Of a stretch of DNA of 64,000 nucleotides, positions 39,881-41,460 are shown in pieces. Within the stretch, counting starts at the first letter, position 1, and every line of letters starts with the position of its first letter. The stretch comes from Gammaproteobacteria bacterium. GTDB taxonomy: Bacteria > Pseudomonadota > Gammaproteobacteria > Nevskiales > Nevskiaceae. Below the pieces are notes generated by a model that did no database searches, was not told the DNA's origin, and was given only the letters and a program-made list of their open reading frames with translations. The DNA is taken from the NCBI GenBank assembly GCA_022599775.1, contig JAHZLQ010000042.1, positions 62,001 through 126,000 on the forward strand, written 5' to 3'. Made by a program: the position numbers and the translations under genes.

Positions 39881-39938
39881 CTAACGGCCATGCCGCAAGC
39901 AGCGCCCGGCAGAATGAATCGCCTGCGGCATGGCCGTT
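39881..39938. repeat. REP-like palindromic repeat, copy 1
   Basis: AACGGCCATGCCGC and GCGGCATGGCCGTT form a 14-bp perfect inverted repeat around a spacer containing AATGAATC. Similar units occur at about 39985 and 40139. The gap 39867-40419 holds only these repeats and the left end of the IS110 element. Confidence 0.65.
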
Positions 39939-39998
39939 TTGCTCTCCCGCAAGCGGACGAGGCTAGCTCGGCATCACGCCGCGCGTGATTCACGTTAA
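39939..39998. repeat. 60-bp direct repeat, left copy
   Basis: The unit starts TTGCTCTCCCGCAAGCGG and ends GATTCACGTTAA. It recurs at 41401-41460 with 3 differences in 60. The two copies lie on either side of the IS110-family gene, which therefore sits within a repeat array. Confidence 0.75.
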
Positions 39999-40034
39999 CG
40001 GCCATGCCGGCGGGGCACCCCGGAAAATGAATCC
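39985..40034. repeat. REP-like palindromic repeat, copy 2 (partial)
   Basis: GATTCACGTTAACGGCCATGCC, spacer and AAAATGAATCC repeat the left half of copies 1 and 3; the right arm has diverged. It directly continues the 60-bp repeat, so both are parts of one larger unit. Confidence 0.5.
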
Positions 40035-40138
40035 TGTGCCAGGCAGGCCGCCCTCTCCCCACCACCCGCTCCGCGGGCGGTCCTCCCCTCTCCCACGTCG
40101 TGGACAAGGGGCAGCGGACTCGCTGCGCGAGATTCACG

Positions 40139-40196
40139 TTAACGGCCATGCCGCAAGCGGCGCCCCGCAAAATGAATCTCCTGCGTCATGGCCGTT
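40139..40196. repeat. REP-like palindromic repeat, copy 3
   Basis: TTAACGGCCATGCCGCAAGC, then AAAATGAATC and GCGTCATGGCCGTT. The arms AACGGCCATG and CATGGCCGTT are perfectly complementary. This is the nearest copy to the left end of the IS110-family element. Confidence 0.65.
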
Positions 40197-40234
40197 GCCC
40201 TCACCCACCGCTCGCAGTCGCGAGCGGTCCCCCC

Positions 40235-40419
40235 TTGTATGCTTGTTTTCGCGGTAGACGTAATTGTTGTAAAGAGTGTTTAGCAGTACCCGGTGTAGCA
40301 GGCCGTTCCCCCCCAGGTTCCAAGACCGTGGGAGAGCATGGGTCGCTGCATCGGAATTGATTCGAGAACCCGAACGGTTGCCTGAGCGAGAAGCTCGTAT
40401 CAACAAGGCCGGGAGTTGA
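40235..40419 (+). ncRNA. Possible bridge RNA region of the IS110 element
   Basis: IS110-family elements encode a structured bridge RNA in the non-coding end next to the recombinase that guides target and donor choice. This stretch has the expected position and length and contains small hairpins, such as GAGC-GAGAA-GCTC at 40384-40396. I have not identified target- or donor-binding loops, so this is placement by analogy. Confidence 0.3.
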
Positions 40420-41388
40420 ATGATGGAAAAGCAAGACAAAGAGTTGGTGCTTGGAATCGACGTATCGAAGCAGTCGCTGGACTGCGCGACGTGGCCTACG
40501 ACCCGGGCGTCGAAATACGCGCGTGATGTGGAAGGGATTGCGGCGTTGGTGTTGCATGCGCAGACGTTGAAGGTGCGCCTGGTGGTACTGGAAGCCACCG
40601 GCGGTCTGGAAATCGAGGTGGCAGCGGAGCTGGCCCGAGCCGAAGTGCCAGTGGCCGTGGTGAATCCGCGGCAGACACAACGCTTTGCGCAGGCGCTGGG
40701 CATTCTGGCGAAAACCGACCAGGTGGATGCCGGCATTCTGGCCCGTTTCGGAGCGATGACGGGGGTCGAGCCGCGCCCCCTCAAGGACGAGGCGCTGCGA
40801 GCCCTGGACGAAGTCGTGGCGCGTCGGCGGCAATTGGTCGAGATGTTGACCATGGAGCGCAATCGCCTGTCCGGCGCGCGGGATCGTCGCGTCACCAAGG
40901 ACCTGAAGGCACACATCGGGTGGCTGGAGAAACGCCAGACGGACCTGGACAACGAGCTGCGCCAGCGGGTCAAGGACAGCCCTGCTTGGCGAGCCAAAGA
41001 CGAGTTGCTGCGAAGCGTCAAAGGCATCGGAGAGGTCAATGCCGCCACGCTGGTGGCCGAACTCCCCGAATTGGGCTCGTTGGGTCGTAAACAAATCGCA
41101 GCCCTCGTCGGGGTGGCACCTTTCAATCGTGACAGCGGCAAGCTCAAAGGCAAACGCATGATCTGGGGTGGCCGCGCCACGGTACGCCATGCTTTGTACA
41201 TGGCCACCCAAAGTGCGCAAAGGCACAACCCCCAAATCCGCGCAATGAGCGAACGGCTCTCGGCGAAGGGCAAGCCGGCCAAGGTCGTCACCGTCGCCTG
41301 TATGCGCAAGCTGCTGACGATCCTCAATGCCATCCTGCGTACCCGACAGCCTTGGAATCCGCACCATACTGCAGCCTCGACTGCTTGA
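40420..41388 (+). CDS. IS110-family transposase (DEDD recombinase)
   Basis: A 322-residue recombinase. The N-terminal RuvC-like DEDD domain has Asp in [11 protein letters not shown], Glu in LEATGGLE and the acidic pair in [13 protein letters not shown]. The C-terminal Transposase_20-type domain has [25 protein letters not shown] and the conserved serine region [13 protein letters not shown]. Length is typical. No frameshift seen. It is preceded by the putative bridge RNA region. Confidence 0.93.
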
Positions 41389-41400
41389 CGCGGAACACGG

Positions 41401-41460
41401 TTGCTCTCCCGCAAGCGGGCGAGGGTAGGTCGGCATCACGCCGCGCGTGATTCACGTTAA
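41401..41460. repeat. 60-bp direct repeat, right copy
   Basis: Matches 39939-39998 at 57 of 60 positions. It begins 12 bases after the transposase stop, marking the right limit of the IS element. No gene is evident between here and 41632. Confidence 0.75.

Follow-up and report, generated by a model that had tools for sequence, protein, structure and literature searches.

Which property of the DNA decides where an IS110-type element comes to lie when it is found inside an array of short palindromic repeats? A 64-kb stretch of a gammaproteobacterial genome (the window) raises this question, since it holds an intact 1,170-bp insertion sequence of the IS110 group surrounded by such repeats (Table 1). 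Our answer is that this is very probably an autonomous element whose insertion would be guided by a bridge RNA to the foot of a hairpin.

The transposase, which the first-pass annotation had described as intact and of IS110 type, is indeed so. Its 322 residues match PF01548 (the DEDD N-terminal domain, 71.2 bits) and PF02371 (Transposase_20, 69.5 bits), each above its cut-off, as well as NF033542 (“IS110 family RNA-guided transposase”, 201.7 bits with a cut-off of 140), and its PDB matches include ISCro4 (E 5.4e-37) and IS621 (E 6.7e-36). The motif residues D14, E58, D100, D103 and S239 are all present, and we take these, by family, to be the catalytic residues.

The boundaries of the element are defined by copies of its surroundings from which it is absent. 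In a genome search with the element region, nine contigs (C6, C8, C15, C27, C36, C38, C39, C40 and C61) have the left and right parts of the query directly joined, the left part stopping at about 373-376 and the right part resuming at 1544-1546. In four of these (C15, C27, C36 and C40) the two query pieces overlap by exactly two bases, which places the join at the CT found on both sides of the element and fixes its limits as given in Table 1. The non-coding ends are 184 nt on the left and 15 nt on the right before the core, which is the layout of the IS110 group, and the CT core dinucleotide and the scarless target join at the empty sites agree with it. Membership of the IS1111 group is ruled out, since the guide RNA of that group lies in a long right end. 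Apart from this copy, the one piece of the element found in the genome is a right end of 92 bp, which is located where contig C1 stops and adjoins the same CTCTCCCGC target half as the element in the window. A plasmid collection yielded only distant IS110s, with all 1,281 protein-search records below 60% identity.

Table 1. Positions of the element, its predicted RNA parts and the flanking repeat pieces, in window coordinates.
Feature	Position	Strand	Basis
IS110-group insertion sequence	40236..41405	+	flank join in empty copies; 1,170 core to core, one CT core copy included
Left CT core dinucleotide	40234..40235	+	2-base overlap of joined query pieces at empty sites
Right CT core dinucleotide	41404..41405	+	same CT overlap at empty sites (C15, C27, C36, C40)
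IS110 transposase, 322 aa	40420..41388	+	PF01548, PF02371, NF033542, PDB matches, motif positions
Left non-coding end encoding predicted bridge RNA, 184 nt	40236..40419	+	fold, stem-loops, pair covariation
Left target guide (LTG) region GUUCCCCCCC, core position CC	40305..40314	+	
Right target guide (RTG) GUGGGAGAG	40328..40336	+	pairs with CTCTCCCGC
Left donor guide (LDG) ACGGUUGC	40374..40381	+	letters identical to ACGGTTGC of right end (left donor)
Right donor guide (RDG) AUCAACAAG	40399..40407	+	pairs with CTTGT, then, after a 2-nt skip, AT of left end
-35-like TTGACG, candidate junction promoter formed only in circle	41385..41390	+	consensus match
-10-like TATGCT, same candidate promoter, 17-nt spacer across junction	40238..40243	+	consensus match
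Left half of target unit (56-bp palindrome 40141-40196, GCTCGC/GCGAGC hairpin, GGTCCCCCCT)	40141..40235	+	
Right half of a target unit, from the CTCCCGCAAGCGGGCGAG hairpin through GATTCACGTT	41406..41458	+	
Further repeat-array pieces upstream, second target-like site at 40088	39883..40140	+	

When rejoined, the flanks read GGTCCCC-CT-CTCCCGC, a text that recurs uninterrupted at other places in this genome. The joined 17-mer GGTCCCCCCTCTCCCGC has 11 exact copies there and 20 with at most two mismatches, while its reversed control has none and one, respectively. Six empty units that we fetched read through the join inside the same composite repeat; one of them, L089, stops at a contig end 12 bases on. 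This unit is approximately 148 bp long (AACGGCC...CACGTT) and combines two hairpins, GCTCGC/GCGAGC and CTCCCGCAAGCGGGCGAG, with a 56-bp palindrome. The insertion point is the 5′ foot of the CTCCCGCAAGCGGGCGAG hairpin (the CTCCCGC...GCGGGCGAG module).

These comparisons bear on several points of the first-pass annotation, which had suggested searching for empty sites and had described an IS110 element lodged in REP-like palindromes. Empty copies do exist, and the element does lie within a palindromic repeat array, but its target is the CTCCCGC hairpin module; the AACGGCCATG palindrome was rejected as a target, the join falling in the neighbouring module. At least three palindromes had been counted; the AACGGCCATG left arm occurs at 39883, 39997 and 40141, and only two palindromes are complete with the CATGGCCGTT right arm (39883-39938 and 40141-40196). 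The two 60-bp direct repeats that had been noted are present as stated (39939-39998 and 41401-41460; 57/60 identical, 95%). They were rejected as target duplications by comparison of the repeat units, because the right copy, bar its first three bases, is the right half of a repeat unit, and the left copy is the corresponding stretch of a different unit that lies upstream.

The repeat is abundant far beyond chance. Its left-arm pattern, with up to three mismatches allowed, has 72 matches in this genome (G000) and 37 in a sister genome (G001), some of them partial units, and the reversed controls have 2 and 0. Repeat arrays coincide with contig ends in G000 (for example in C7, C12, C19, C58 and C69), and as the assembly breaks at these arrays it probably understates the number of copies. 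At one locus, between genes W and X, G000 has a unit that G001 lacks; it apparently lies between TA dinucleotides, and the composite repeat is perhaps MITE-like. Genes for Y1_Tnp (RAYT-like) proteins number four in G000 and six in G001; within fetched flanks of at most ~1.5 kb, a palindrome arm was found near none of the four and near two of the six (L131, which has both arms and hence a complete palindrome, and L140, which has one). Judged from these sequences, either name may suit the repeat, “REP” in the strict RAYT-linked sense or MITE-like.

The arrangement of neighbouring genes requires a separate explanation. We compared window positions 39867-41460 and contigs C1 and C2 (L013, L096, L099) with the corresponding loci of G001 (L086, L095). 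The order in G001 is hydrolase gene, one degenerate unit and gene Y, and W stands directly before X. In the window genome it is hydrolase, units, IS and X; Y follows the second right end where contig C1 terminates, and W closes contig C2, the last bases of which stop at the target. The two orders conflict: either two IS copies have recombined or the assembly is wrong at the IS (contig C42 misjoined), and the target halves on the two sides of the IS may therefore stem from two units. It could be that IS copies or repeat units recombined homologously to give the present neighbourhood, and that RNA-guided insertion did not take place at this spot. We consider this improbable, because the flanks of both right ends correspond to a precise CT join of the repeat, and recombination accounts for the neighbourhood but not for the choice of target.

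That choice is better explained by the left end of the element, where the first-pass annotation had placed a possible bridge RNA with a target-binding loop that might pair with the repeat text. Folding and a search of the loops support both proposals computationally. The 184-nt left end is predicted to form a target stem-loop and a donor stem-loop (-61.7 kcal/mol; z -1.89, with 5/200 shuffles as good), so that the modelled whole-RNA fold is only mildly better than those of shuffled sequences; folded singly, the target and donor stem-loops have z values of -3.84 and -1.68. For alignment A2, which contains the window and 16 relatives (L022 included; L035, L047, L029, L082 and L083 left out), RNAalifold predicts 15 pairs. 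Thirteen of these were counted, the two inside the RTG region being left out. Across the 13, 87.3% of cells are paired compared with 68.9% in shuffled alignments (0/500), and both sides change in 10 pairs compared with 7.5 (7/500). Versions of the structure slid along the alignment have 22-54% of cells paired, a comparison that favours the actual structure since it was derived from the same alignment. An Rfam scan of 39800-41600 gave no match at E values up to 1.

In the predicted RNA, the sequences UUCCCCC and GUGGGAGAG of the target loop pair with the joined target on its two sides, and the donor loop pairs with the element’s own ends. The RTG forms eight Watson-Crick pairs and one G-U pair with CTCTCCCGC, core included. 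The LTG fits 6/7 non-core bases of the left target; its mismatches to the present target are a U where the target has G and, at the second core base, a C where it has T. The second core base of the LDG is likewise C and not T. The RDG pairs discontinuously, and this pattern of nine nucleotides on seven bases is known for IS110s (PMC11208160). With the flanks joined, the two strands of the window contain 6,172 CT sites, and the occupied site is tied for the best guide match among them at 12/14 non-core positions, although the LTG match is partly compositional because of its C-run. The other 12/14 site is at 40088 in the neighbouring unit (TCCTCCC-CT-CTCCCAC, 40081-40096). Where the local target has GGT, the LTG is GUU. 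Of the hits with at most one mismatch to the GGT form, the variant GTTCCCCCCTCTCCCGC accounts for 17/42 in the family's other genomes and for 0/14 in the window genome, so the guide may reflect the target of an earlier host.

If the loops are guides, they should differ among relatives in step with the flanks. We collected 40 relative loci and used 20 of these together with the window; the remaining 20 (L022, L026, L030, L032, L033, L038-L046, L048, L049, L051-L054) were cut off, or had loops or ends not readily readable by eye. Each test has n=20, because the left flank of L025 and the right flank of L079 are missing. The non-core RTG matches its own right flank at 4.15/5 positions on average and swapped flanks at 1.68/5 (0/20,000 permutations), and the LTG matches its own flank at 4.20/6 and swapped flanks at 2.77/6 (0/20,000). 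With near-copies removed, the values are 4.19/5 and 1.93/5 for the RTG and 3.94/6 and 2.77/6 for the LTG (n=16 and 0/20,000 each). Poorly fitting rows were kept within these sets: L037 (0/5) and L023, L077 and L082 (3/5 each) for the RTG, and L050 and L029 (0/6) and L031, L080 and L081 (3/6) for the LTG. The value for L037, which was counted anyway, is perhaps due to an anchor one base off. Because ends and guides were chosen by eye on the printed sequences, their choice may carry some bias. A covariance model built from A2 added 13 loci in 369 genomes of the class (E up to 1e-8); six of these loci could be used for their right end and 10 for their left flank. In these the RTG matches 28/30 positions in the six elements (swapped 2.07/5) and the LTG 4.0/6 in the 10 elements, compared with 2.0/6 when swapped (3/20,000), with weak LTG rows for L123 and L126 (2/6) and L120 (3/6). 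By these matches, guides follow targets among the relatives.

Ten rows in a tree of 26 transposases carry the guide GUGGG[A/G]GAG or GUGGGAG (the window, L023, L025, L027, L031, L036, L081, L117, L120 and L121). The tree leaves out L128, a short match, and L082, L083, L119, L124-L127 and L130 are likewise absent. This guide class needs five changes on the tree compared with a shuffled mean of 8.2 (9/500 as low), and is thus clustered, yet not one clade. Nested within a close group (support 100/96 for the set of four, L024, L028, L023 and L031) are two Gallionella elements, L024 and L028, with other guides and correspondingly different flanks. Their predicted bridge-RNA backbones are closely similar to those of L031 and L023, and we read the pairing of different guides with matching flanks as natural retargeting. 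L023 itself, from a Halothiobacillus MAG, has the same RTG as the window, GUGGGAGAG, yet its present right flank reads CTACCCC; a change of the flank or a different history may lie behind this.

In six of the 10 members of the class (the window, L031, L081, L117, L120 and L121) the right flank folds as a hairpin beginning at the core C; of two elements with other guides that we folded, L024 and L028, the first has such a hairpin too. The transposase might therefore read the hairpin itself, as DNA shape or as a cruciform, with the RNA matches being incidental. This is very unlikely, since relatives whose guides differ are flanked by sequences that fit their own guides, the flank of L028 folds at only -1.0 kcal/mol, and folding of the right flanks of L023, L025, L027 and L036 gave no hairpin starting at the core. 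Less likely still is that the RNA has a regulatory function of the kind described for ISPpu9 (PMC8450116) instead of a guide role, with which such regulation could coexist, since the matches of both loops, to target and to donor, lie where they would be expected, and the target loop changes together with the flanks.

Bridge-RNA-guided insertion thus remains the preferred reading, and its basis consists of the boundaries, the core, the empty sites, an RNA structure with compensatory changes and the covariation of guides with targets. From these we infer the expression of the RNA, RNP formation, a circular intermediate and catalysis. The element would excise as a circle, in which a promoter, TTGACG-N17-TATGCT, would arise where the right and left ends meet and would drive transcription of the left end as bridge RNA. 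The transposase would bind this RNA, whose donor loop would pair with ACGGTTG-CT-TGTAT at the circle junction and whose target loop would pair with ..TCCCCC-CT-CTCCC.. at the 5′ foot of the hairpin in the multicopy repeat; strand exchange at CT would then insert the circle without a scar. Junction promoters are known for IS110 circles (PMC11208160). The candidate here is a consensus match only (9/12), and TTGAC-17-TAT is present in 12/21 elements and absent in 9/21.

The mechanism and the family are already known from IS621, as are IS110 elements in palindromic repeats; the bridge-RNA mechanism was described in 2024. IS621 of E. coli, also of the IS110 group, shares with the window element a DEDD and serine recombinase, a CT core, a bridge RNA (predicted here) in a long left end, the LTG/RTG/LDG/RDG layout with a 9-nt RDG on seven donor bases, a junction promoter (a candidate here) and a target in a palindromic repeat (PMC11208160). 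The target texts differ, ATCAGGCCTAC in REPs for IS621 and GGTCCCCCCTCTCCCGC at a hairpin foot here, and the two transposases are distant. ISPpu9, ISPpu10 and ISRm19 are likewise IS110-family elements specific for palindromic repeats, with 7/7, 7/7 and 4/4 copies in REPs (PMC1525189), and ISPpu10 has a predicted bridge RNA (PMC11208160); they have another repeat and other hosts, and were set apart on these grounds. In ISEc21 and the seekRNA systems an IS110-type RNA upstream of tnp also guides target choice, with other targets, and natural re-direction between relatives is known for ISEc11/ISXne4, of IS1111 type (PMC11187229). The window element is, on its sequence features, a new bridge-RNA example of the IS110 group with a well-defined target.

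It represents a compact, well-delimited predicted bridge-RNA system whose natural target is the foot of a GC-rich hairpin, and its relatives, in which guides and targets have changed together, should be useful for working out pairing rules (core tolerance and guide lengths) outside IS621. The shared guide class hints that distant relatives use the same landing spot. A tentative explanation, which we hold to be possible though rather doubtful, is that a broad IS110 lineage keeps one RTG, GUGGG[A/G]GAG, even where the identity of its transposases to that of the window has fallen to 42-55%. The reason would be that the hairpin-foot repeat CCCTCACCC..CCCTCTCCCGC..GCGGGAGAGGG is itself dispersed among many bacteria; now and then an element would escape to a new target, as in the two nested Gallionella elements. 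We did not meet this reading in the literature searched, which left most subscription papers out of reach, and the CTCTCCCGC text was in none of the literature matches listed. If it is true, the repeat would be a portable landing pad with which the element crosses species without retargeting, and an RNA-guided element would stay mobile across species by means of a widespread repeat.
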